From positions 1,054,001 through 1,118,000 of the forward strand of contig NZ_JAGRQC010000001.1 of assembly GCF_018122655.1 (NCBI RefSeq): 64,000 nucleotides of DNA, given 5' to 3'. Shown here piece after piece: positions 1-45,858 of the stretch (positions are counted from its first letter, which is position 1; each line of letters opens with the position of its first letter). A model generated the notes under the pieces. It searched no databases. It was not told where the DNA came from and saw only the letters and a program-made list of their open reading frames with translations. The position numbers were made by a program, and so were the translations under genes. The stretch comes from Stakelama marina. GTDB taxonomy: Bacteria; Pseudomonadota; Alphaproteobacteria; Sphingomonadales; Sphingomonadaceae.

Positions 1-229
1 CGCCGCGTGGCAGGCAAGCGCTGCCGCGGTTGAAGGCGCCGACAGCGCAGCCGACCTGTCGGAGCGCGGGTACAAGGGCGGCGTCACCGACCTCTCCGAT
101 CTGCTCTACGTCGATCGCCAGGCACTGGCTGCACGGCGCGAAGAAATAACCGCACGCGTGGCTGCCCTCAGGGCAATCATGAAGCTGCGCGTCGATTCGC
201 ATGACATGTGGGCGCCCGACGAAGGCTAA
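1..229 (+). CDS. TolC-family outer membrane efflux protein, C-terminal fragment
   Basis: The open frame enters from the left edge at base 2 and stops with TAA at 227-229, giving the last 75 residues. The piece is helical and Ala-rich. It contains a G-Y-K-G-G-V-T-D-L-S-D-L-L segment followed by V-D-R-Q-A-L-A-A-R, the usual pattern of the second periplasmic helix hairpin of outer membrane factors (a turn, then LDVLxAQRxLxxAR). Such proteins form the outer membrane channel of RND or type I export machines. Partner genes would lie left of the window. It ends about 70 bp from the convergent secreted-protein operon. The family call is probable; the transported substrate is unknown. Confidence 0.7.
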   Translation, partial: AAWQASAAAVEGADSAADLSERGYKGGVTDLSDLLYVDRQALAARREEITARVAALRAIMKLRVDSHDMWAPDEG

Positions 230-298: not shown

Positions 299-898
299 TC
301 AGTTGAGTGCGCCGATAAGGCCTTGATCGACCGTTCTTGAAATTCCGGCAATCGCCGATGCGCTCACCACGTCGCTGCGGAACCCGTCATAGCCCGAAAT
401 GTCGAGCTGAAGGTCGGCTTCCTGTCGGATGTTGGCGTTGTTCGCCGTGTTGATGAGGATGTTCTGCAAGCCGCCGTCGGTCTTGTGCGCAAGCGCGGTC
501 TGCCCATCATTTGCGAGATACACAGACTGGTCGCCGACCTTCATCGTGATACTGCCGGTGTTGAGAAGCCCGGCCTGCAACTGCTCAGCGGTCGCCTTAG
601 ACAGCACCGCCGAGACCCATTCGGTGCGCTCGGGCGGGCCATCCTGCCAGTTTATCGTGGTCAACAGAGCGAGTTCGCCGTCGAGATAGGTGCGGAACTC
701 GGCACCGAGCGAAATGTCCATTCCGTCGACGGTGAATCCGCCGCGCTGCTCGGACAGCAGTTCGTCGTCGAGCGTCTGAAGCTGTTCGAGATCGAGTTCG
801 CCATCGGCGCGGGGGGCGGTCGCATTTCCCAGCGCCATCAAAGCAAGGAGCGAAAGCGCTGCTGCCCGGATTACGGGCGTCCTACCAACGGCGCGCAT
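299..898 (-). CDS. Secreted protein with double-glycine leader-like motif and Fap-type Asn motif
   Basis: A 199-residue protein with a Sec signal peptide ending near residue 28 (LALMALGNATA). Just after it, residues 43-54 read LDDELLSEQRGG. This looks like the D/E-E-L-x(n)-GG leader cut by C39 peptidases, although here it follows a signal peptide. Residues 146-159 (NILINTANNANIRQ) repeat the N-x2-I-N-T-x4-N core seen in the protein encoded at 1657-2034. It is the last gene of a reverse-strand operon, 10 bp after the C39 peptidase gene. I know no named family for the whole protein. By context I infer an exported fibre or surface component, or an accessory that the peptidase processes. Confidence 0.7.
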   Translation of the reverse strand: MRAVGRTPVIRAAALSLLALMALGNATAPRADGELDLEQLQTLDDELLSEQRGGFTVDGMDISLGAEFRTYLDGELALLTTINWQDGPPERTEWVSAVLSKATAEQLQAGLLNTGSITMKVGDQSVYLANDGQTALAHKTDGGLQNILINTANNANIRQEADLQLDISGYDGFRSDVVSASAIAGISRTVDQGLIGALN

Positions 899-908
899 GA
901 CATCCTCC

Positions 909-1646
909 TTAATTTACCGTGCCTACCCGCACGTCGAGCAGGAGCAGAGGTGTGATCTGGTATTGCGGTGGCAGATAGGTCGTCAGGTCGGCAATCGCCG
1001 TCGTAGTCCCCGCCTCCGCATCGAGTGGTGCACGCGCCCACGGGTTCCAGTCGCTCGGCAGGTTGTAGACCGGCCGATCCTTATAGGGGCCGGCGAGGAT
1101 CGCCAGAACGACGCCGTTCCAATAGCGCGCGAATTGCTTGCTGTCATATTTGGTCAGACCCAGCATGGGGTCGCCGGTCAGCACCTGCCCGTCGGCCATT
1201 CCCTTGACGACCGCGAAATGCTTGTAGCCGTGCAGGTCTAGCAGCACGATCACCGGTCGCTTGAGCTGCGAAAGCTGATCCATGGTCAGCTTGAACCCTT
1301 CGACGCGATAACCGATCGACTGCAGATAGGCGCGCATGTCGAAGAGCGAGAAACCCTTTTTGCGGATCATTTCGCGGTCGCCGACCTTCCACATCGCAGC
1401 GAAGCTCTCGCGCTCGGTCGTCGGGCGGTCATAGCCATAGGTCAGAAGCGTCGCGACCGCTGCCGAGCCGCAGCTGAAATCATATTGCTGGCGCACGACA
1501 GTCCGGAACGGGATCGCCCACCAGCTCATCACATGGACGGTCGAGGGCGCGCCGGTTTCGGGGCCAAGGCGAACCTGAGCGTGTGCAGGTGCCGCCGCCA
1601 GCATGGCGGAGCTGATCGCCAGAACAGTCGATTTTCTCCACCCCAT
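909..1646 (-). CDS. Secreted C39-family cysteine peptidase (FapD-like)
   Basis: A 245-residue protein with a signal peptide (cleavage probably after AHA-Q near residue 23), so the peptidase should act in the periplasm. The C39 catalytic set is visible: Gln53 as oxyanion residue and Cys59 in QQYDFSCGSAA, His143 in GYKHFAVVKG, and Asp159 in LTGDPMLG. There is no ABC or membrane domain, unlike bacteriocin transporters. Stand-alone C39 peptidases of this kind occur as FapD in the Pseudomonas functional-amyloid operon. The gene lies 10 bp after one small secreted-protein gene and 10 bp before another, so these products are its likely substrates or partners. The peptidase call is firm; the substrate is inferred. 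Confidence 0.85.
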   Translation of the reverse strand: MGWRKSTVLAISSAMLAAAPAHAQVRLGPETGAPSTVHVMSWWAIPFRTVVRQQYDFSCGSAAVATLLTYGYDRPTTERESFAAMWKVGDREMIRKKGFSLFDMRAYLQSIGYRVEGFKLTMDQLSQLKRPVIVLLDLHGYKHFAVVKGMADGQVLTGDPMLGLTKYDSKQFARYWNGVVLAILAGPYKDRPVYNLPSDWNPWARAPLDAEAGTTTAIADLTTYLPPQYQITPLLLLDVRVGTVN

Positions 1647-1656
1647 CTTTCGTCAC

Positions 1657-2034
1657 CTAGTCGGTAATGTTGACGGTGAGGATCATCGCGGTCTGCAGGT
1701 TGTTCTGCGCGCCGGTATTGATCGTGAAGTTGCCGATGCCGGAAAAGTTGGACAGGGCGTTGTCGGCAAAGTTCACATCGCCCGCGCTATAGTCGCCCAA
1801 CACATTGCCCGAGACGATCGCATTCAGCGTCTGCTGGTTGATGACGATCGACGTTCCACCGTCGCCGGTGCCGCGTGTCGTCCGCAATTCGTCCTCTGGG
1901 ATAAGGATTGGAAGCGGTCGCTCCGCCTGGACCTGGTTTCGCTCGGGATCGGAGGGCGTCGTTTGCGCGATCGCGGCTCCAGCGTTGAAGGCGGCTGCGA
2001 CAATCGCAGCGGCCGAAATGCTTTTGACGAACAT
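1657..2034 (-). CDS. Small secreted Asn/Gly-rich protein, Fap-like subunit candidate
   Basis: A 125-residue protein with a Sec signal (cleavage near AIA-Q24). Residues 47-60 (PEDELRTTRGTGDGG) again resemble a D-E-L...GG leader, and a short beta-prone domain follows. Residues 92-116 fit NA-x3-F-x-G-I-x-N-x3-N-x-G-x3-N-x-Q-x-A, which matches residues 122-146 of the protein encoded at 2118-2633 at every conserved position. The pattern recalls the N-x-A-A-G-x2-N-Q-Q repeats of FapB and FapC. It is translated 10 bp before the C39 peptidase gene. A fibre subunit or nucleator is the best guess. Confidence 0.7.
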   Translation of the reverse strand: MFVKSISAAAIVAAAFNAGAAIAQTTPSDPERNQVQAERPLPILIPEDELRTTRGTGDGGTSIVINQQTLNAIVSGNVLGDYSAGDVNFADNALSNFSGIGNFTINTGAQNNLQTAMILTVNITD

Positions 2035-2117
2035 TTTCCCCTCCTGTTGAACCGGACGTGGAGAGTGGGCCGGGACGCTTGGGGGTGTTGTCCCGGCCCC
2101 TCCCGCGGGAGTGTCGA

Positions 2118-2633
2118 TCAGTCGCCGCTGGTGGATCCGGCCGAGTCAGTTCCGCTTACGCCGAAGTTGATCGTGCCGCGCGCGGCGATGTTCGTGGCGG
2201 CTTGCGTGTTCGCATTGATGCCCGAATTCCAGGCGGCATTGGAAATGCCCGCGAACGCCGCGAAGGCATTATCGTTCACCGATTGCGAACCACTGTTATA
2301 GCCCACACTCGCACGCCTATCGTCAGCGCCGTCCATATCCACCACTTCATCGAGGTGATGGTTGATGTTCATCGCCTTCAGCTCCTGATAGGCGACGACC
2401 GGCGAGTTCGACCACGAGTTGTTGTTCGCCTGATAGGACATCGACGTGCTGTAGCTGTCGGCCGCATTGTCGACCGCAAAAACGTCGAGCAGATCGTTCA
2501 CGATCAGGTTGTGGTCGGAACCGTTGTTGAAGGTCCCGCCGACACCACCGCCCGTCGTCTGGGCGAAGGAAGGCGCGGCGATCAGGAGTCCGGCGGTGCT
2601 TGCGCAGGCCAGGATTAGGGTTTTGGTACGCAT
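2118..2633 (-). CDS. Secreted Asn/Ser/Gly-rich protein, Fap-like subunit candidate
   Basis: A 171-residue protein with a clear Sec signal (MRTKTLILACASTAGLLIAA, cleavage after SFA-Q25). The mature part is rich in Asn, Ser, Ala and Gly, has no cysteine, and contains the motif FAGISNAAWNSGINANTQAA at 127-146. That motif is shared with the next protein in the operon. It is the first gene of the operon and is preceded by an AGGAG-type site. Small size, bias toward amide residues and co-transcription with a C39 peptidase suggest a secreted amyloid-like or adhesive subunit. An ordinary hypothetical exported protein remains possible. Confidence 0.7.
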   Translation of the reverse strand: MRTKTLILACASTAGLLIAAPSFAQTTGGGVGGTFNNGSDHNLIVNDLLDVFAVDNAADSYSTSMSYQANNNSWSNSPVVAYQELKAMNINHHLDEVVDMDGADDRRASVGYNSGSQSVNDNAFAAFAGISNAAWNSGINANTQAATNIAARGTINFGVSGTDSAGSTSGD

Positions 2634-2885: not shown

Positions 2886-3647
2886 TCACGACACGCGTGT
2901 CTTGCCGAAGGGATATATCAATTCGCGATAGGTCGCTTCGGGGGAGCCGTATGAATCGCCGGCCGCCCTTTCGAGGCCCGCCCGGTTTCGAATAGCAACA
3001 CGGCCGCGCGTGCAATGTAGAATATGCTCACCTTCAAGAAGGTGCAGACAGTCGGTTACCGTCGCACGGCGGACGTTCAGCACGTCGCCGAGATCGGCAT
3101 GCGTGACCGATAGCTCGTCGCCTTCAATCCGGTCGTGCAGCATCAGCAGGCGGCGCGCGAGACGCGCTTCGACCTGATCGCGACGTTCGGACAATATCGT
3201 CCGCGCCATCTGTTCCTTCAGATAGAGCGTGTAACGCAGCAACAGATTGCGAAGCTCGTCATCCTGTTCGGCAAGTGCCTTTACGACATCGGATTTCGCG
3301 ACGAGCGCCGAGCCTCCGCTGATCTGAACCACCGTCCGGTGAGGAGAAAGTCGGGCGCCCAGCAGAGCGGAAACGCCGATCATGCCCTCGCGCCCGGCCA
3401 TCGCGACTTCGAAGCCGGAGTTTTTGCGATCCACCACGCACAGCGAAACAACGGCATTTTCGGGAAAATATATGTTCTGGCTCGATTGTCCGGCCTCGCT
3501 CAGCACATCGCCGGATGAAACTTCGATGCGCCGCACATGCGGTTTCAACAGCGCCGCGCCATGCGAGGAAAGCGCTCGCAGAAGTAAGTTAGGTGTTTCC
3601 AGACAATCGCGATTTTCAATCGGTTCGACAACGGCGCTCAACATCAA
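2886..3647 (-). CDS. Crp/Fnr-family transcriptional regulator
   Basis: A 253-residue protein with an N-terminal cyclic-nucleotide-binding fold (about 30-150; includes FPENAVVSLCVV and FEVAMAGREGMIG) and a C-terminal winged helix (about 160-235) whose recognition segment reads LSVTHADLGDVLNVRRATVTDCL. It lacks the Cys cluster of oxygen-sensing Fnr. The LGARLSP segment after EGMIG is common in the large sphingomonad and rhizobial group of Crp-like regulators of unknown ligand. The gene faces the same way as the secreted-protein operon and lies upstream of it, with an Fnr-like dyad between. Control of that operon is inferred. Confidence 0.9.
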   Translation of the reverse strand: MMLSAVVEPIENRDCLETPNLLLRALSSHGAALLKPHVRRIEVSSGDVLSEAGQSSQNIYFPENAVVSLCVVDRKNSGFEVAMAGREGMIGVSALLGARLSPHRTVVQISGGSALVAKSDVVKALAEQDDELRNLLLRYTLYLKEQMARTILSERRDQVEARLARRLLMLHDRIEGDELSVTHADLGDVLNVRRATVTDCLHLLEGEHILHCTRGRVAIRNRAGLERAAGDSYGSPEATYRELIYPFGKTRVS

Positions 3648-3797
3648 CCTCTCGATTCATAGAACTACGCTAGCAGCTTCGTTGCAAAGTCCCGATCGGA
3701 TGCATTGCAGTACGCGCGCGTACGTAACCCCCAGAAATTGAAACCGAAATTCTACGCGGACCGTTGCTCGACGTGCAAATATTTCAGGAGAGGCGCG

Positions 3798-4760
3798 ATG
3801 ACGGACGACACGATGCTTGCCGACGCTTTCGAAGCGAGAGAGAAGCGACGAGAGGAACGGCGCGGTTTCTTCAAGGCATTAGGCGTCGCGGCTGCGGTTG
3901 GCGGGACCACGGTGGCGGGCCTTCGTGCCACACCGGCGTCAGCGCAATCCGCCCCTAGTGACGGTGATGTTCTGAACTTTGCCCTCAATCTCGAATATCT
4001 TGAAGCTCAGTTCTACTATCACGCCGCATTCGGGCAGGCGCTGCCCGACAATCTGCTGACCGGCGCGGGTACGCAGGGAACCGTCAATGGCGGCCGAATG
4101 GTGAATTTCTCCGATGACGCAGTCCGCAAATATGCCCGTGAAATCGCGCGCGACGAAATGCACCATGTCGAGTTCCTCCGCTCCGCGATTGGCGGTACCG
4201 CGGTTGCGCAGCCCGACCTCGATATCAGCAGCGACCCGAACGGCGCCTTCTCATCCGCGGCACGCGCGGCGGGCCTGATAGGGGCAGGACAGTCGTTCGA
4301 TCCCTATGCCAATGACGAGAACTTCCTTCTCGGCGCGTTCATATTCGAGGATGTCGGCGTCACCGCCTACAAGGGTGCCTCGCCCCTTATTTCGGACAAG
4401 ACGTTCCTCGAAGCGGCTGCCGGAATTCTGGCCGTGGAGGGGTACCATGCCGCCATCGTTCGCAGCACCCTGTACGCGAAGGGCATCAACGCGCCTTCGC
4501 TCGTTCAGGCCACGCAGAAGATATCGGATGCGCGCGACAGCCTCGACGGCCCGTCGGATGACGACCAGGGTATCGCGCCGATGCAGATCGACGGGCAGAC
4601 GGCAAGCAACATCGCGCCTCTGAACGAAGACAGCATCGCCTATAGCCGGTCGACGGGACAGGTTCTGAACATCGTCTATCTGAACAATATGGCGGTCGAT
4701 CAGGGCGGCTTTTTCCCCAGCGGCGTGAACGGCGCCATCACCACCAGCGCCGCCAGCTAA
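3798..4760 (+). CDS. Ferritin-like domain protein, Tat-exported
   Basis: A 320-residue protein starting at the ATG 7 bp after AGGAG (3786-3790). The N-terminus has a Tat-like signal: ERRGFFKALGVAAAVGG, then cleavage near ASA-Q. The body is a Ferritin_2-type four-helix domain with E-Y-L-E-A-Q-F-Y near the start and R-D-E-M-H-H-V-E-F further on, both with the carboxylates and histidines expected of a di-iron or degenerate site. The next gene encodes a close paralogue. These desiccation- or stress-linked proteins are common in sphingomonads, but the reaction is unknown. Periplasmic location is inferred from the signal. Confidence 0.85.
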   Translation: MTDDTMLADAFEAREKRREERRGFFKALGVAAAVGGTTVAGLRATPASAQSAPSDGDVLNFALNLEYLEAQFYYHAAFGQALPDNLLTGAGTQGTVNGGRMVNFSDDAVRKYAREIARDEMHHVEFLRSAIGGTAVAQPDLDISSDPNGAFSSAARAAGLIGAGQSFDPYANDENFLLGAFIFEDVGVTAYKGASPLISDKTFLEAAAGILAVEGYHAAIVRSTLYAKGINAPSLVQATQKISDARDSLDGPSDDDQGIAPMQIDGQTASNIAPLNEDSIAYSRSTGQVLNIVYLNNMAVDQGGFFPSGVNGAITTSAAS

Positions 4761-4790
4761 ATCACTGCGCCGAGATCAGGGAGAACAGCC

Positions 4791-5798
4791 ATGAAACAAG
4801 ACGATATCATCGAAATCCTCGACGCATGCGATCAGCGTCGTGAGGCTCGCCGCTCATTTCTGCGCCTGGCAGGTAGCGCCGGTGCAGCGGTCGCAGGCGC
4901 AAGTGTCCTCGCGGCGTGCGACAGCAACAATGGCTATCCGCCTGTCAAGGCACCGCCGCCCCCGCCTCCCCCGCCGCCGCCACCGGCGGGCGTTACCGAC
5001 GAGGATGTGCTCAACTTCGCCCTCAATCTCGAATATCTCGAAGCGCAATTCTACGCCTATGCCGCAACCGGCACCGGTCTTCCGAACTCCATGCTTGGCG
5101 GAACGGGTACGCAGGGCGCTGTTTCCGGTGGCAAGAAGGTCAACTTCACCGATCCAGTCGTTGCCCAATATGCCCGCGAAATTGCTCGGGACGAGCAGAA
5201 CCACGTGGCCTTTCTTCGCGGTGCGCTGGGGTCGGCGGCGGTGGCGCAGCCTGCCCTCGACATCAGCGCCGATGCCAACGGCGCATTTTCGGCGGCAGCT
5301 CGCGCGGCTGGCCTAATCGGCGATGGGCAGTCATTCGATCCCTATGCCAGTGACGAGAATTTCCTACTCGGCGCTTTCATTTTCGAAGATGTCGGCGTCA
5401 CCGCCTACAAGGGCGCGTCCCCGCTGATCACCAACAGCACATTTCTGGAAGCAGCAGCGGGAATCCTAGCCGCAGAGGCCTATCATGCCGGTCTGGTTCG
5501 CACGACGCTGTATAGAAAGGGTCTGCAAGCGCCGAGCCTCATCCAGGCGACCGAAGATATCTCCGACGCGCGCGACAGCCTCGACGGTCGAGACGATGAC
5601 GACCAGGGCATTGCCGAGCGCGATAACGCTGCCAACCTGGTCCCGGCGGACGATAGCGGGCTCGCCTACAGTCGCACGACCGGACAGGTACTGAATATCG
5701 TCTATCTATCGGCTGCCCAGAGCACCAAGGGCGGATTCTTCCCCGACGGCGTAAACGGGACGATCATGGAGAGCGACGCCAACGGCGCCGCTGCCTGA
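4791..5798 (+). CDS. Ferritin-like domain lipoprotein with poly-proline linker
   Basis: A 335-residue paralogue of the upstream protein, starting 30 bp after its stop. The N-terminus [18 protein letters not shown] is Tat-like but leads to a lipobox (SVLAAC, Cys about residue 43), so this copy should be lipid-anchored. Eleven consecutive prolines then form a linker before the ferritin-like domain, which keeps [11 protein letters not shown] and the later [11 protein letters not shown] helix. In this second motif H-H of the first copy is N-H. The pair probably arose by tandem duplication followed by a change in anchoring. A terminator follows at 5826. Confidence 0.85.
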
Positions 5799-5825
5799 CC
5801 CCGCCCATCTCCAGATCCTCCGCGG

Positions 5826-5866
5826 AACGGCCCGTGTCTCAGACGACGCGGGCCGTTTCTCATTTT
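5826..5866 (+). terminator. Intrinsic terminator after ferritin-like pair
   Basis: A 9-bp perfect stem (AACGGCCCG 5826-5834 with CGGGCCGTT 5849-5857), a 14-base loop, and a T-rich tail TCTCATTTT. It lies 28 bp after the stop of the second ferritin-like gene. Confidence 0.7.
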
Positions 5867-5941
5867 CGCAACCCCAGCGGCGCTTGCTACGCGATCCGGG
5901 CTGAACCAGTGTGGGCATCAACCACAATATGGGAGGATTGC

Positions 5942-6466
5942 ATGGCGCTGTACGAGATCGAGGGAAACCGGCCTAAACTTGGCGACGGCGCATGGGTGGC
6001 ACCAAGCGCGGATCTGATCGGTGATGTACGCCTTGGCGAACAGGCCAGCGTCTGGTTCGGCGCTGTCATTCGCGGCGACAACACGCCGATGCTGGTCGGC
6101 GCTCGTTCGAATTTTCAGGACGGCGCCATGGGGCATTCGGATCATGATGCACCGCTCACCATCGGTGAAGACTGCACCATCGGCCACCACGCGATCCTGC
6201 ACGGCTGCACGCTCGGCAACCGCGTCCTGGTCGGAATGGGCGCAACGATCCTAAATAATGCCGTCATCCCGGACGACTGCATCATCGGCGCCGGCGCGCT
6301 GGTGACGGAGGGCAAGACGTTCGACGCCGGAAGCCTGATCCTCGGCAGCCCTGCCCGGGCAATCCGCAAGCTCGACGATCAGGCGCTCGCGCTGCTCAAA
6401 ATGTCGGCCGCGCATTATGTCGAAAAGGCGCGCCAGTTCGCCGCCGGGCTGAAGCGGATCGATTGA
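5942..6466 (+). CDS. Gamma-class carbonic anhydrase-like protein (LbH hexapeptide repeat)
   Basis: A 174-residue protein starting at ATG 5942 behind GGGAGG (5931-5936). It consists of left-handed beta-helix hexapeptide repeats (for example IGDVRLGEQASVWFGAVIRG and IGHHAILHGCTLGNRVLVGMG). Histidines that could bind metal occur in GHSDHD and in IGHHAILHG, as in the CamH/YrdA/PaaY group. Length is normal for that group, which either hydrates CO2 or acts as an acyl-CoA thioesterase; the sequence alone does not decide. It is encoded 49 bp before the oxidoreductase gene. Confidence 0.85.
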   Translation: MALYEIEGNRPKLGDGAWVAPSADLIGDVRLGEQASVWFGAVIRGDNTPMLVGARSNFQDGAMGHSDHDAPLTIGEDCTIGHHAILHGCTLGNRVLVGMGATILNNAVIPDDCIIGAGALVTEGKTFDAGSLILGSPARAIRKLDDQALALLKMSAAHYVEKARQFAAGLKRID

Positions 6467-6514
6467 TGAAGGCAGCGTGCTGGACACCGGGTTCAGTTGC
6501 GCTATGAAACGTAC

Positions 6515-7477
6515 ATGGCACTTCCACCGCTCTTCGATCGTCTGCGGCTGCCGGTCATCGGATCGCCGCTGTTCATCATCTCGGTTCCCGACCTTGTCAT
6601 CGCGCAGTGCAAGGCCGGGATCGTCGGATCGTTTCCGGCGCTCAATGCACGGCCACAGAGCCAGCTCGATGAATGGCTTCACCGGATTACCGAAGAACTC
6701 TCGGCCTGGAATCGCGACAATCCCGATCGACCGGCCGCGCCCTTTGCGGTCAACCAGATCGTGCATCGGTCGAACGACCGGCTGGAAGCCGATCTCGCGA
6801 CCTGCGCCAAATGGCAGGTGCCCATCGTCATCACCTCGCTAGGCGCGCGCGAGGACCTGAACGATGCGGTGCACGGCTGGGGCGGGATCACGCTTCACGA
6901 CGTCATCAACGACCGGTTCGCGCACAAGGCGGTGGAAAAAGGTGCCGATGGCCTGATCCTCGTATGCGCGGGCGCCGGTGGCCACGCCGGACAGCTCAAC
7001 CCGTTCGCATTCGTGCAGGAAACGAGAAGCTGGTTTGACGGGCCGATCATCCTGTCCGGCGCGATCGCCAATGGCGGAGCGGTGCTCGCGGCCAGGGCGA
7101 TGGGCGCCGACCTTGCCTATATCGGATCGCCCTTCATCGCGACGGCGGAAGCGAATGCCGGCGAAGCATATAAGCAGGCGATCGTCGATAGCGGAGCGTC
7201 GGACATCGTCTACACCAACCTGTTCACCGGGGTGCACGGCAATTACCTGCGCTCGTCGATCGAAGCAGCGGGCCTCGACCCCGACAATCTGCCCGACAGC
7301 GATCCGAGCAAGATGAATTTCGGATCGGGCGGGAACAGCAAGGCCAAGGCATGGCGCGATATATGGGGCTCGGGACAGGGCATCGGCGCAGTCCATGCGG
7401 TGGAGCCCGTCGCGGCCCGCGTCGACCGTCTCGAGAAGGAATATCGCGAGGCGCTGGCGCGCCTCAACGCGAAATAG
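6515..7477 (+). CDS. NAD(P)H-dependent flavin oxidoreductase / nitronate monooxygenase family
   Basis: A 320-residue TIM-barrel FMN enzyme. ATG 6515 (MALPPLFDRLRLPVIGSPLF) is preferred over the in-frame TTG at 6497 because family members begin at this point. The FMN-binding and catalytic loop is seen as LVCAGAGGHAG (histidine about residue 165), followed by GPIILSGAIANGGAVLAARAMGADLAYIGS. This family includes nitronate monooxygenases that oxidise alkyl nitronates and also quinone or enoyl reductases, so the substrate cannot be fixed. It ends 4 bp before the convergent rcdA stop. Confidence 0.85.
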   Translation: MALPPLFDRLRLPVIGSPLFIISVPDLVIAQCKAGIVGSFPALNARPQSQLDEWLHRITEELSAWNRDNPDRPAAPFAVNQIVHRSNDRLEADLATCAKWQVPIVITSLGAREDLNDAVHGWGGITLHDVINDRFAHKAVEKGADGLILVCAGAGGHAGQLNPFAFVQETRSWFDGPIILSGAIANGGAVLAARAMGADLAYIGSPFIATAEANAGEAYKQAIVDSGASDIVYTNLFTGVHGNYLRSSIEAAGLDPDNLPDSDPSKMNFGSGGNSKAKAWRDIWGSGQGIGAVHAVEPVAARVDRLEKEYREALARLNAK

Positions 7478-7481
7478 GCAG

Positions 7482-7943
7482 CTAGAACGCGCGGTTCAGC
7501 CGCGCCATCATGGCGCGAGCGGGACTTTCGACCTCGACTTCACCCGCCTGGGCGCGGTCGAGATGCGATGCCCGTCGGTGAAGATCGATGCTCGCATCGA
7601 TGATCGATCGCGCCTGTGCCGGCATCCGGCCGGTCAAATCCGCATCGCTTTCGGGCGCCTCTCCCAATCGGCGCGAAGGGTCGAGTGCTTCCCTCGCGGG
7701 CAGTTCGCCACAATCGATCGCGCGCTGGGTCAGGAGCCAGGCGATGACATGCATCAGGCGTGTGGTCACCTTCAGCGATTCGCACGAAAACGCCACCCGC
7801 GTTATCGCATCGAGCGTGCTGCGCTCCTCACGACCGGCCGCGTCGAAATAGCCGCGCGCCTCGTCGGCCAGAAGCATCGCTTCGGTATAGAGCGTGTCGA
7901 TCAACCGGCGATGGATTCGATTCATTTCGTCGCGCGCGTGCAT
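7482..7943 (-). CDS. rcdA: DUF1465 family protein, RcdA-type ClpXP adaptor
   Basis: A 153-residue all-helical protein matching the DUF1465/RcdA family of alphaproteobacteria: F/Y-x-EAMLLADEARGYFD near the N-terminus, then TRLMHVIAWLLTQRA with the conserved W-L-L-x-Q-R core. In Caulobacter, RcdA works with CpdR and PopA to present CtrA to ClpXP during the G1-S transition. A second in-frame Met is at 7925 and either may start the protein. The C-terminal third (after about residue 105) is less conserved. The CtrA phosphotransferase gene chpT is also in this window, at 37.8 kb. Confidence 0.8.
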   Translation of the reverse strand: MHARDEMNRIHRRLIDTLYTEAMLLADEARGYFDAAGREERSTLDAITRVAFSCESLKVTTRLMHVIAWLLTQRAIDCGELPAREALDPSRRLGEAPESDADLTGRMPAQARSIIDASIDLHRRASHLDRAQAGEVEVESPARAMMARLNRAF

Positions 7944-8044
7944 CCCGATGGAGTGCCAGAAAGCGCCAGCAAACGGAACGGCAAATTCGGCCCTCGCGCC
8001 AGCAGAACTTTCTCAAAACGGTTCACCGAACCGCGGCATTTGGT

Positions 8045-8254
8045 TCAAGCGATGATGTCGGGGATCAAACGATCTTCCAGATCCGCGATGCGGTCGCGAA
8101 GCCGCAGCTTCTGCCGCTTCAGGCGCGCGATGCGCAGTTGATCGGGATTGGCACCGCGAAGCAGCGCGTCAATCGCGGCGTCGAGATCGCGGTGCTCGAT
8201 CCGAACCTGCTCCAGCCGCGCCTCGATATCCTGATCGTCCAACCCTGCCCCCAT
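8045..8254 (-). CDS. YdcH family (DUF465) small coiled-coil protein
   Basis: A 69-residue protein. Nearly all of it is one amphipathic helix pair: RLEQVRIEHRDLDAAIDALL, then LRIARLKRQKLRLRDRIADLED. The L-K-R-x-K-L-x-L-R-D-x-I segment is the DUF465 signature. The function is unknown. It is divergently oriented from a second YdcH gene at 8374, with 119 bp between the start codons. Confidence 0.85.
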   Translation of the reverse strand: MGAGLDDQDIEARLEQVRIEHRDLDAAIDALLRGANPDQLRIARLKRQKLRLRDRIADLEDRLIPDIIA

Positions 8255-8373
8255 GGTCGCTAACTGGTGCCGAATACCGCACGCCCCGTCGAAAGCACAT
8301 CACAAGGATAGCGACAATCGGCCCGAAGCGTGGTTTATTATGTTCCCCCAAGCTCGAAAGGAGAAGCATTGCC

Positions 8374-8529
8374 ATGCAGAATGCGCATATCTCGTCACTC
8401 GAGGCCAAGCACCACAAGCTCGACCGCCGCATTTCCGACGAAATGCACCGGCCCCGCCCGGATCAGCTTCTGGTTGCGGAACTCAAGCGAGAGAAGTTGC
8501 GCGTGAAGGAGGAAATGCAGGCGCACTAG
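8374..8529 (+). CDS. YdcH family (DUF465) short protein
   Basis: A 51-residue gene (MQNAHISSLEAKHHKLDRRI...LKREKLRVKEEMQAH) with a strong AAAGGAG site at 8357-8363. It carries the DUF465 pattern of LEAKHHKLDRRI, then LLVAELKREKLRVKEEM. It is shorter than the divergent copy but has the same two-helix layout. Its function is unknown. The ribosome site and family match make it a real gene despite its size. Confidence 0.85.
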   Translation: MQNAHISSLEAKHHKLDRRISDEMHRPRPDQLLVAELKREKLRVKEEMQAH

Positions 8530-8556
8530 CGCCCTTCGCGCCCTGCCCCGCGCCGT

Positions 8557-8934
8557 TCAGCGGCGCGGGAGTATGGCTTTCGTGTAAACGGGCGACTTCG
8601 CCCCCTTGCCAACCGGTTTGCGGGCCAGTTTCGGATCGACCTGCCGATCAAAGGCAACCCCGACACGTTCATCGGTGCACCAGGCAACGCTGCCGGTAAC
8701 CTTGCCGATACCGCGAATCTCCACCGATACCGGCGTGCCCACCGCCAACCGCTCAGGATATTCCGCCATCAGGCCGCCCGCAGACAGATTGCGGATGCGA
8801 ACAACCTGCGCTTCCGAAAGCCCGTCATGGCAAAATTTCGCCGACAGAAACATGCTGTCGCGCGCATTCGACCGGCTATGCCCGCCAGCAGCGGTGGGCT
8901 TATCCCCAAACGCATCGGAACGGTGCTGATTCAT
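8557..8934 (-). CDS. PilZ domain protein
   Basis: About 125 residues from Met at 8934 (an alternative start lies 9 codons upstream). The c-di-GMP motif is complete: R-S-N-A-R (RxxxR, residues 21-25), then N-L-S-A-G-G (N/DxSxxG, 49-54). The remaining beta-barrel contains VEIRGIGKVTGSVAWCTDERVGVAFD. It is a stand-alone PilZ domain, so it probably acts as a c-di-GMP effector by protein contact. A GGDEF/EAL protein is encoded 11 kb away, but no direct partner is adjacent. Confidence 0.85.
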   Translation of the reverse strand: MNQHRSDAFGDKPTAAGGHSRSNARDSMFLSAKFCHDGLSEAQVVRIRNLSAGGLMAEYPERLAVGTPVSVEIRGIGKVTGSVAWCTDERVGVAFDRQVDPKLARKPVGKGAKSPVYTKAILPRR

Positions 8935-9027
8935 TGCTGCTCGGCTCGATCGAAAATCCACGTGGCCGACAATAGACCAGCAATCATTATCGAAACCGTT
9001 AACCGCCGGCGGGTTTCCGCAGTAACA

Positions 9028-9489
9028 TCAGTCCTCGCGCGACACCTTCTCGTTGCGCTCGTGCCGTTCCTGCGCTTCGACCGTCATCGTCGCGATCGGC
9101 CGCGCCTCGAGCCGTGCGAGCGAAATCGGCTCACCGGTCACTTCGCAATAGCCATATTCGCCTTCTTCGATGCGACGAAGTGCTGCATCGATCTTGGAAA
9201 TCAGCTTGCGCTGGCGGTCACGCGTCCGCAGTTCGATCGACCAGTCGGTTTCGCTCGATGCGCGGTCGGTAAGGTCCGCCTCGCGCAGCGGTTCGGACTG
9301 GAGTTGCGAAAGCGTACCCTCTGCCTCGCGACAGATCGCGTCCTTCCAATCGAGCAATTTGCGGCGGAAATATTCCTGCTGCCGCGGGTTCATGAACGGC
9401 TCGTTCGCGCGCGGCCGATACCCATCAAGGTCGTTGGCGGCACCGCGATGGCCCGAAGGTTCGTCGCGTAGATCCAGAACTGTTGCCAT
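9028..9489 (-). CDS. dksA: RNA polymerase-binding transcription factor DksA
   Basis: A 153-residue DksA/TraR-type protein starting at ATG 9489 (a GTG lies two codons upstream). A coiled-coil N-terminus (about 30-100) contains the D-x-x-D-x-A-S region as ADLTDRASSETD. The C-terminal globular part reads YGYCEVTGEPISLARLEARP. It has only one of the four cysteines of the E. coli zinc finger, as is usual in alphaproteobacteria. DksA binds the secondary channel of RNA polymerase and works with ppGpp in the stringent response. The call is firm. Confidence 0.93.
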   Translation of the reverse strand: MATVLDLRDEPSGHRGAANDLDGYRPRANEPFMNPRQQEYFRRKLLDWKDAICREAEGTLSQLQSEPLREADLTDRASSETDWSIELRTRDRQRKLISKIDAALRRIEEGEYGYCEVTGEPISLARLEARPIATMTVEAQERHERNEKVSRED

Positions 9490-9915
9490 CCCCACTCTCC
9501 ATACTAGCGATCCAGCCGGCTGTTACCCAGATGGACCGTCCTTCCCCTCGCCGGCCCTATACGTTCAAGCGGGCCGCTCGACAAGCATGCGAATCGGCAG
9601 AAATTCGCCATAAATCCCTAGTGACATGGGGGAAATTAGATGGCGCAGGTGGTCAGAACGACCTATCCCGGGACATGCGTTAACCATGTTGGCGAAGAAG
9701 TGCGGGCCGGAACGAGCGCAATTATGTCCCGAAATCGGACGTTATCCATATCGCGTTGCTGCCGCGGCGGCATTTTCCCAAAATAGACCAGCAGAGCATG
9801 GTTAACCGCGTTGCGCTTAATCTTTTCTTCTGACCTCCTAGGCCATCAGCGGCGAAAGGATCTGGCTCTCTTGCCTGTCCTTCGGGCCCGCGAAAAGAAG
9901 AGAATAGGACGCTTT
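9490..9915. other. Intergenic region with long-range inverted repeat
   Basis: This 426-bp gap between divergent genes has no convincing coding region. It holds GTTAACCATG (9679-9688) and its exact inverse CATGGTTAAC (9797-9806), 108 bp apart. The second copy is about 110 bp before the PEP-CTERM-like gene. The stretch 9800-9840 is T-rich and may hold that gene's promoter, but I see no clear -35/-10 pair. Confidence 0.5.
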
Positions 9916-10845
9916 ATGTCGGTACGGATGGCCTTGGCAAAATTGTGCGCCTGCGCTTGCGGCGGCGCAATCGTCGGCGGCGGCGCGGTACACGCTCTCG
10001 ACACGTCGCCCAAGCGCGTGCACGTGAAGCGGGTGGCGAGCAAGAACCACAGCTATCATCGCCCGGCGACCAAAGTCACGAAGCTGACCAAGGTCCACCG
10101 GACCAAGCGCATCGTCAAAACGGCGAAGCCGGTTGTGCCGAACTGCCAGCCGGCAGTCGTGACGGTGACGTCGCAAGGCGCGCCCATTCCGCTGCCTCCG
10201 CGCCGCGACGTCCCGGTCGTGTCGAGCAGCGGCGGCGGTGCGGTTCCGGTCGTCATCGGCGGCAGCGGCGGCTTTGGCGGCGGTTTTGGCGGAGGCTTTT
10301 TCGCCGGCGGGTTCTTCGGTGGCAGCAGCGGCGGCAGCAGCGGGATCGTCATCTCGTCGACGTCGAGCGGCAGCAATGTGAACATCGACAATTCGAACAG
10401 CAGCACCAACAACAACGATAATTCGGCCGATAATTCGAACACCAACAATCAGTCGAACGACAACAACAACAACAATTCGAGCAACAGCTCGTCCGAGAGC
10501 AACAACACCAACACGAACAACAATTCGAATTCGAATACGAACAACAACTCGAACGAGCAGTCGCAAAACCAGAACCAGGATCAGAACCAGCAGCAGAATC
10601 AGGACCAGAACCAAAATCAGGGTCAGGGCCAGAATCAGAACCAGGACAATCATGGCTGGGGTTCGAGCCACGGCTGGGGTTCGAGCGGCTGGAGCTCGAG
10701 CGGGCATCATCATGGCCATCATGGCGGATCGAGCGGAACGCCGACGCCGGTGCCCGCACCGCCGATGGTATTGTTGTTCGGCGGAGCCGCGGCAACGCTC
10801 GTCGCCCGCAAGCGACTGAAGCGCAAAAAAGAAAAGGCCGCCTGA
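9916..10845 (+). CDS. Asn/Gln-rich secreted protein with PEP-CTERM-like sorting signal
   Basis: About 309 residues from ATG 9916. An N-terminal signal-like segment (CACACGGAIVGGGAVHA) is followed by a basic His/Lys/Thr region (about 25-80), a Gly-rich stretch (about 110-145), then about 90 residues made mostly of Asn, Ser and Gln, with runs of five Asn and repeated DQNQ units. The C-terminus reads TPTPVPAPPMVLLFGGAAAT, then ends in a basic tail. That is a PEP-CTERM variant: Pro-rich motif, one TM helix, Arg/Lys tail, the type sorted by an exosortase. The low-complexity core suggests a prion-like or matrix protein. It may work with the XrtA-type amidotransferase gene at the window end. Confidence 0.75.
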   Translation: MSVRMALAKLCACACGGAIVGGGAVHALDTSPKRVHVKRVASKNHSYHRPATKVTKLTKVHRTKRIVKTAKPVVPNCQPAVVTVTSQGAPIPLPPRRDVPVVSSSGGGAVPVVIGGSGGFGGGFGGGFFAGGFFGGSSGGSSGIVISSTSSGSNVNIDNSNSSTNNNDNSADNSNTNNQSNDNNNNNSSNSSSESNNTNTNNNSNSNTNNNSNEQSQNQNQDQNQQQNQDQNQNQGQGQNQNQDNHGWGSSHGWGSSGWSSSGHHHGHHGGSSGTPTPVPAPPMVLLFGGAAATLVARKRLKRKKEKAA

Positions 10846-20115: not shown

Positions 20116-20340
20116 GCGCACTCCAATTTCCTGTCGCACCCGCGTAACGCAAAATGCGCCGGCGGACGAAACCTCGTCGGCCGGCGTCGCCCCATGGGAC
20201 GGTACAAATATACGTGTCGCGATTGCGAACGACGCGGCCTTTAGCGCCTTCCGGGCAAAAGCGCAAGTTCGACCGGCTTAACCCGATTTATACCGATCGA
20301 GTCGATGATCCCCCGATCGAAGGAAGGGGAAGAACCGACA

Positions 20341-31503: not shown

Positions 31504-31866
31504 TTCGCCAGAGGGCCTGTAAGCCGGGTTCTGTCCACGCCCTTGCGGGCGCTGTGCGGCCATTCCTCTAGGACGGTGCTTGCGCACCGCCTCAAGCAAC
31601 CAACCCGGGCGACGGGCCGGAAAGATGCCCATATGCCGCCCCTATTCGGTCTTGCTCCCGGTGGGGTTTGCCGTGCCGCTTCCGTTACCGGTCGCGCGGT
31701 GCGCTCTTACCGCACCCTTTCACCATGACCGGGCGAGTTCCCGGCCGTCTGCTCTCTGTGGCACTTTCCCTGGGGTCGCCCCCGCCGGGCGTTACCCGGC
31801 ACCGTCATTTCCGTGGAGCCCGGACTTTCCTCGTGTTTCCACGCGGCCGCCCGGCCCTCTGGCGCG
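31504..31866 (-). ncRNA. rnpB: RNase P RNA (type A)
   Basis: Read on the reverse strand, the region has GAGGAAAGTCCGGGCTCC near the 5' end (31815-31832) and ACAGAACCCGGCTTACAGG near the 3' end (about 31517-31535), the two hallmarks of bacterial RNase P RNA. The ends pair exactly: CGCCAGAGGGCC with GGCCCTCTGGCG (31853-31864 and 31506-31517), forming P1. Length of about 360 nt is normal. It cleaves tRNA 5' leaders. Forward-strand reading frames across it are spurious. Confidence 0.95.
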
Positions 31867-45759: not shown

Positions 45760-45858
45760 GTGGTGGGAGCCGGAACGACCCGCAGCGAAATCGTTACGGC
45801 TGCTTCCTTCCGGACCTGACCGGGTTGGCGACGGCTACGTCCGCCCGACTCCCGCGCG
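45760..45858 (-). ncRNA. ffs: Signal recognition particle RNA (4.5S, small type)
   Basis: Reverse-strand sequence contains GGTCAGGTCCGGAAGGAAGC followed by AGCC (45798-45821), the universally conserved SRP domain IV loop that binds Ffh. Flanking arms pair (GGGAGTCGG with CCGGCTCCC), giving a hairpin of about 95 nt. Ends are approximate. Confidence 0.93.

Follow-up and report, generated by a model that had tools for sequence, protein, structure and literature searches.

Four adjoining genes on the reverse strand of a 64,000-nucleotide stretch of the Stakelama marina genome (contig NZ_JAGRQC010000001.1, positions 1,054,001 to 1,118,000; this whole stretch is called the window) probably encode, together with an unlinked gene for a FapF-like channel, a surface-protein secretion system that is a sister to the Fap system known from Pseudomonas and others. 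The four genes are referred to as A, B, C39 and D, the channel gene as F. The case is built on gene content, homologies, conserved leader sites and co-occurrence among relatives, as far as these can be read from sequence. A previous account of the window, made from its letters alone (the sequence-only reading), had taken the block for a minimal or reduced system. Its description of four reverse-strand genes, of their order and of the 10-bp gaps around the peptidase gene is confirmed by the coordinates, and the C39 identity of the peptidase, the likeness to Fap and the Asn-rich C-terminal motif common to the small proteins stand as well. Its inventory was incomplete: it overlooked the double-glycine leader of D, B's variant of this leader and, away from the block, the FapF-like gene. 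The terms 'minimal' and 'reduced' are no longer appropriate, because the block contains a FapE-family protein (D) and the genome a FapF-like gene.

The gene block and its peptidase

The block is compact: A and B are separated by 83 bp, B and C39 as well as C39 and D by 10 bp (Table 1). All four proteins begin with a presumed Sec signal, as judged by eye. The small proteins are acidic, with Asn and Gln making up 16, 23 and 12% of presumed mature A, B and D, and scans of the three found neither a Pfam family nor an NCBIfam family above its cut-off. The pattern NA-x3-F-x-G-I-x-N-x3-N-x-G-x3-N-x-Q-x-A is present in two of the 385 open reading frames (ORFs) of at least 60 amino acids found in six frames of the window, namely in A (residues 122-146) and B (92-116), and the shorter N-x2-I-N-T-x4-N in two as well, at B102 and D146. 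By profile comparison with hhalign the cores of A, B and D are related beyond the level of these motifs: the A core matches the B core (probability 95.5, E 1.6e-8, 59 columns), and so does the tail of D (85.7, E 5.5e-6, 32 columns). Likewise, a hidden Markov model (HMM) of 48 B-family rows picks up the window's gene A at E 2.5e-4. None of the four block genes, to which the search for FapA was confined, has an NCBIfam match to FapA, a chaperone that Fap operons often lack, and promoter and terminator scans gave no more matches than shuffles. A Crp-type regulator upstream of A (window 2886-3647) was considered as a part of the system and dropped, since other genes stand upstream of the block in two relatives: a YkuD gene in L041 and a thioesterase gene in L042.

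Table 1. Position of the four block genes and of their motifs in the window
Feature	Position	Strand	Description and basis
Gene A	2633-2118	-	171-aa (amino acid) acidic protein rich in Asn, Ser and Gly, presumed to be secreted and to serve as a fibre or surface subunit; ORF, core related to B, composition
Gene B	2034-1657	-	125-aa presumed secreted protein with variant leader and shared core; ORF, relatives in 88/96 loci
C39 peptidase	1646-909	-	245 aa, FapD-like, presumed periplasmic; Pfam/NCBIfam scores, conserved Q53/C59/H143/D159, tree
Gene D	898-299	-	199 aa, FapE-family protein with canonical double-glycine leader; hhalign against FapE, FapE genes matched by the D model
Shared core motif in A, residues 122-146	2196..2270	-	pattern and A core/B core profile match
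Shared core motif in B, residues 92-116	1687..1761	-	pattern and profile matches
Variant leader site of B, residues 50-60, LRTTRGTGDGG	1855..1887	-	family alignment
Double-glycine leader site of D, residues 48-54, LSEQRGG, ahead of F55	737..757	-	family counts, model helix 45-51
Short core motif in D, residues 146-156	431..463	-	pattern; D tail to B core E 5.5e-6

The identity of the peptidase is well supported: Pfam Peptidase_C39 matches it with 68.7 bits against a gathering score of 22, and Q53, C59, H143 and D159, which we take to be the catalytic residues, are invariant in 15 aligned peptidase sequences. Among PDB sequences it is matched best by the C39 domains of ATP-binding cassette (ABC) transporters for bacteriocins and competence (best E 5.8e-4), and Pfam and NCBIfam scans found no ABC transporter part in the window peptidase itself. 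In the NCBIfam ranking C39_FapD comes first with 149.4 bits, which misses the equivalog cut-off of 330, followed by FilB with 114.4 bits (cut-off 475). The FapD cut-off is strict: a Pseudomonas-like locus (L148) reaches 420 bits, and three non-Pseudomonas loci with canonical Fap order (L151, L155 and L157) also fall short of it with 208-260 bits. In a peptidase tree of 106 rows, which is unrooted, has no outgroup and contains rows picked for their similarity to the window, ten C39 from loci chosen by FapE form one group (support 97/94), and the window peptidase stands with 94 others across a 98/90 branch from this FapD group, its nearest neighbour being that of Sphingomonas sp. AX6. The peptidase of L040, on a long branch, joins the FapD side.

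Because of the NCBIfam ranking and the placement in the tree we regard the window peptidase as FapD-like and as a member of a neighbouring clade: it stands beside, not inside, the FapD clade and would belong to a sister variant of Fap. A peptidase outside the FapD clade is one of two findings that the sequence-only reading had named as speaking against itself; the other, small genes in genomes without such a peptidase, was not seen except for two marginal B matches (see below). Nearly identical peptidases were met in an alphaproteobacterial metagenome-assembled genome (MAG) and in a MAG filed as Anaerolineae (L101 and L111), probably through a binning error, and phylum labels that rest on a single MAG should therefore not be trusted.

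An unlinked channel gene and the distribution of the system

In Sphingomonas sp. AX6 (L041) the genes A-B-C39-D are followed by a convergent gene for a FapF-like barrel of 424 amino acids. This protein has a 68% identical homologue in the window genome (G000:C1:972770-974026, E 1.9e-178), which lies in the ORF G000:C1:972734-974029, approximately 80 kb from the block. The FapF model matches the window genome's F over positions 24-420 of 420 with 136 bits, below the equivalog cut-off of 700. The claim that FapF-like genes are absent has therefore to be given up, and a single contiguous operon including fapF is not what the genome holds. The gene F is located directly behind a Crp-family regulator, as it is in L048 and L054; its distance from the peptidase gene is 8.8 kb in L043 and 6.7 kb in L045. 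Close relatives have F near D, and in the window the position after D is occupied by a TolC-family gene. This efflux gene (window 1-229, forward strand; L025 6991-8229) stands in place of the close relatives' FapF-like gene, and its neighbour on the opposite side looks by eye like an RND-type gene of 1026 aa.

The genes of the system occur together. In a set of 61 genomes (the window genome and 60 relatives), C39 was found in 15 at E < 1e-30, a threshold chosen in this analysis, with weaker matches in 7 further genomes. Both D and B were found in exactly these 15 (one match each in the window genome), and so was F at E < 1e-100, though it is unlinked in the window genome; weaker F matches comprise a fragment at a contig start (G016, E 5e-48) and weak ones in G054, G041 and G030. 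The agreement of B, C39 and D is partly due to linkage, because they travel as a block, which does not hold for F in the window genome. A second set of 398 genomes of the phylum was searched for C39, D, B and FapE, the co-occurrence of F being counted in the smaller set. Here, C39 is present at E <= 1e-20 in 38 genomes, 16 of them with a window-type peptidase according to a cut made for this set (worst included 3.5e-62, next best genome 1.2e-56). D was found in 24 genomes, namely these 16 and 8 others in which the match is the FapE gene found by the FapE model; B was found in 18, the same 16 and two (G080 and G363) with marginal matches inside 749-aa ORFs.

A scan of named genomes found 567 relatives, the best 80 of which were joined by 16 further loci to give 96 loci, with the window and duplicates (L026/L062, L028/L073) included. 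Labelled with HMMs of 9 to 13 seeds each, which match themselves by construction, these loci hold B in 88 cases, D in 89, F in 89 and relatives of A upstream of B in 40. The relatives include Sphingomonas, Sphingopyxis, Brevundimonas, Phenylobacterium, Marinobacter, Ectothiorhodospira, Lysobacter, Pandoraea and Geotalea, and some of them have, upstream of B, a gene for a long repeat protein rich in Asp, Asn and Ser. A tandem duplicate of the B, C39 and D matches, about 2.9 kb apart, is found at G197:C11:1028938-1033369. G146 and G186, two genomes from the same family as the window, possess FapE and FapD-type genes (loci L151 and L152), in L151 as a Fap operon of canonical order (4092-9500); sphingomonads can thus hold a genuine Fap beside the variant.

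The FapE-family protein and the double-glycine leaders

Gene D encodes a FapE-family protein next to the peptidase. In hhalign comparisons the D family matches FapE with a probability of 93.6 (E 2.1e-7, 43 columns) and a larger D set with 96.8 (E 3e-10, 66 columns); the D model in turn finds FapE genes in the genome search, some matches reaching model position 134-175 of 200. These results led us to reject the absence of FapE, which the sequence-only reading had asserted. The FapE equivalog model of NCBIfam left the window's D unmatched up to E 1; among the 398 phylum genomes it has matches in 20, of which 7 are above its cut-off.

Behind the presumed Sec signal, D and the B of most relatives carry a double-glycine leader of the bacteriocin type, L-x3-R-G-G. 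The site of the window's D, TLDDELLSEQRGG, followed by FTVDGM, has the attributes of a double-glycine leader, i.e. a hydrophobic residue at -7 and GG at -2/-1 ahead of the mature part. When aligned to the family model, the D relatives have GG in 84 of 89 loci (two have GR, one AG, two are unaligned), L or M at -7 in all 87 aligned sequences and R at -3 in 84. At the corresponding site a majority of the B relatives possess L-x3-R/S-G-G: GG is found in 55 of 88 and GR in 15, the remainder being mixed or unaligned, with L or M at -7 in 82 of 86. The window's B carries a variant, ELRTTRGTGDGG, and in A no double-glycine leader of the B or D kind was seen. Leaders were counted by alignment because a strict pattern (E or D at -8 plus GG) undercounts them. 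It matches 45 of 89 D (3.8 in shuffles) and 30 of 88 B (1.2), compared with 29 of 1030 other genes (20.9), and occurs in 10 of 96 C39, 5 of 91 F and 3 of 41 A.

The AlphaFold model of D (mean predicted local distance difference test score, pLDDT, 78.6; predicted template modelling score 0.58) places a helix at residues 45-51 directly ahead of the GG, followed by beta strands between residues 55 and 168, which form a compact beta domain, and by a C-terminal helix. From residue 61 on, the ten-residue means are 79-96, except for 56 at residues 111-120. A fold search with this model gave no match at E <= 0.001, and none at Z >= 5 in a repeat look. The model of B has no strands within the monomer, a result of low confidence (mean pLDDT 63) that excludes nothing, and a fold search with this poor model gave no match. 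Given the leader, we infer that the C39 peptidase cuts D at its double-glycine site.

A related site is present in FapE itself. In 20 of 22 genes matched by the FapE model, L-x3-R/H-G-R/K followed by F or Y stands at the corresponding place; the exceptions are L145 (L-x3-T-G-K-Y) and L147, a weak match that resembles FapB and lacks the site. The R-G-R/K site of FapE seems to be a degenerate form of the double-glycine site of D. Moreover, the linker of F, between coiled coil and barrel, often carries a site related to the leader site: after setting aside 39 F-like proteins without the landmark and 9 with a short N-terminus from a total of 98, it was found in 24 of the 50 testable ones (2.1 in shuffles, 1 with the reversed pattern), and an alternative pattern in 23 of 92 (shuffles 3.3). 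In the sphingomonad Fap locus L151 the FapF site reads PLAPDDLVTMRGRYR and the FapE site PIADEELGSIRGKF; in seven other FapF proteins of canonical loci none was seen by eye.

Proposed mechanism, alternatives and neighbouring features

In the mechanism that we propose, A, B, C39, D and F would pass the inner membrane via Sec, and F would form a barrel in the outer membrane whose coiled coil lies in the periplasm. There the C39 peptidase would remove the double-glycine leader of D and, at the variant site, that of B, and the linker of F may be a further target in many relatives. Once matured, the Asn-rich subunits would be exported through F and join one another at the cell surface via their shared core, presumably into fibres, amyloid or not. 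We lean, by a small degree, towards a broader view in which Fap is one branch of a much wider two-step export, consisting of Sec and then of the removal of a double-glycine leader by a periplasmic C39 peptidase ahead of release via a FapF-type channel, with the rule L-x3-R-G-[G/R/K/x] common to B, to D and FapE, and often to the FapF linker. Because the recognition rule is shared, a single enzyme would both trim the channel and bring the subunits to maturity, and the site of Pseudomonas FapE would have gone unrecognised as a C39 site because of its degenerate R-G-R/K.

Several observations weigh against a Fap-like sister system of this kind. The seed and locus sets were picked via the window's own family, and the family counts are therefore not independent of the window. 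The site of the window's B is altered (RGTGDGG), just 55 of the 88 B relatives have GG, and the linker site is absent from the F of the window genome itself. The similarity of D and FapE peaks in the leader and the first strand, so that part of this match could reflect shared protease recognition. Finally, an HMM of FapB/C repeats, built from a set cut by regular expression with some pieces out of register, matched none of the window proteins.

The last point also bears on the idea that the block is a true, diverged Fap, with A and B as FapB and FapC forming FapC-type amyloid fibrils, which we consider unlikely without dismissing it. The presence of FapE- and FapF-type partners and the Asn/Gln-rich composition of A, B and D would agree with it. 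The B core weakly resembles the FapB/C repeats, which is suggestive (E 6e-4, score 20.3 compared with at most 10.4 in 20 column-permuted controls); the repeat HMM finds three B relatives at E 0.001-0.005, and the FapB of the canonical-order locus L151 matches the B model with 25.6 bits. However, the A core has no match to the repeats, the peptidase is placed outside the FapD clade and F is unlinked. All repeat results, positive and negative, are weakened because the repeat set is partly out of register. A stronger contender, though one that we would still not expect to prevail, is that the product of the same machinery is not amyloid but an adhesive coat or a structure resembling a pilus, like that suggested for the Fil system of Acinetobacter, a putative pilus system whose C39 peptidase (FilB) and barrel (FilC) belong to the same wider families. 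FilB is the second-best match of the window peptidase, the F proteins of relatives match FilC with 46-86 bits, and the strandless B monomer and the compact beta domain of D are in line with such a product. On the other hand, the FilB and FilC scores are far below the cut-offs of 475 and 630, FapD and FapF outscore FilB and FilC in every protein scanned, and the B model is of low confidence.

Two further explanations have very little in their favour. A stand-alone system without an outer-membrane channel, as the sequence-only reading had it, would explain why no F is found in the block or its immediate surroundings; we reject it because F is present in the same genome, with strong F matches in 15 of 15 block-bearing relatives. 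It is hardly credible either that B and D are toxic peptides of a bacteriocin-type system matured by C39. Double-glycine leaders beside a C39 peptidase are shared with bacteriocin and ComA-type C39 transporters, and one D relative has a weak Lactococcin match (E 0.051, below the cut-off), but the enzyme here is free, presumably Sec-exported and without ABC parts, the leaders themselves follow a presumed Sec signal, mature D comprises about 145 amino acids with a FapE-like start, and a FapF-like barrel is the regular partner.

The sister system that we favour shares with Fap (fapABCDEF) a periplasmic C39 peptidase whose gene stands between those of small Asn-rich proteins and that of a FapE-type protein, the gene order subunit-subunit-C39-FapE and a FapF-type barrel with a coiled coil. 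In contrast to Fap, its peptidase falls in a neighbouring clade, its leaders are canonical double-glycine leaders instead of the R-G-R/K of FapE, FapB/C repeats were not detected by the (imperfect) repeat HMM, no FapA match was seen in the block, and F is convergent in many relatives and unlinked in the window genome. According to the passages of a 2017 study drawn on here, secretion of FapC requires the active site of FapD, the target of FapD is left unclear, and Fap proteins are without canonical C39 sequences; the N-terminal ~70 residues of FapE yielded no peptides in mass spectrometry, and residues 60-100 of FapF are potentially processed (PMC5557850). These N-terminal data fit the proposed sites, although trypsin would also cut the FapE site. 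As excerpted here, a 2013 survey found Fap confined to Beta-, Gamma- and Deltaproteobacteria, with FapD and FapF in larger families (PMC3792158), a 2018 review mentions fapD-fapF neighbours in five further phyla (PMC6173800), and a 2025 review gives the FapE N-terminus and FapF as presumed targets of processing by FapD, and reports that more than 90% of 1602 clusters picked by FapB/C repeats have canonical synteny (PMC12822426). From these papers it follows that the wider FapD/FapF association had already been noticed; new are the leaders, the relation between D and FapE including the site, and a block whose F is unlinked. Titles and abstract openings of open-licence papers, preprints excluded, yielded no description of double-glycine leaders on partners of FapD-type peptidases. 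The leader sites suggest a substrate rule for FapD-type periplasmic C39 peptidases, and the canonical leader of D together with the FapE site amounts to a residue-level prediction of the FapD cut. FapD/FapF-type export may also be wider, Alphaproteobacteria included, than surveys based on FapB/C repeats, as described in these excerpts, would see.

Other features were noticed in the window outside the block. A 344-aa ORF (9811-10845, forward strand) contains a long Asn/Gln/Ser-rich low-complexity stretch and ends with a hydrophobic segment and a basic terminus, by eye a PEP-CTERM-type anchor. Two adjoining ferritin-like (Ferritin_2) genes are located at 3705-4760 and 4791-5798 on the forward strand (Pfam 152 and 153 bits). 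Rfam matches on the reverse strand comprise an ffh small RNA (20149-20201), a class A RNase P RNA (31504-31862) and a small signal recognition particle RNA (45760-45855).

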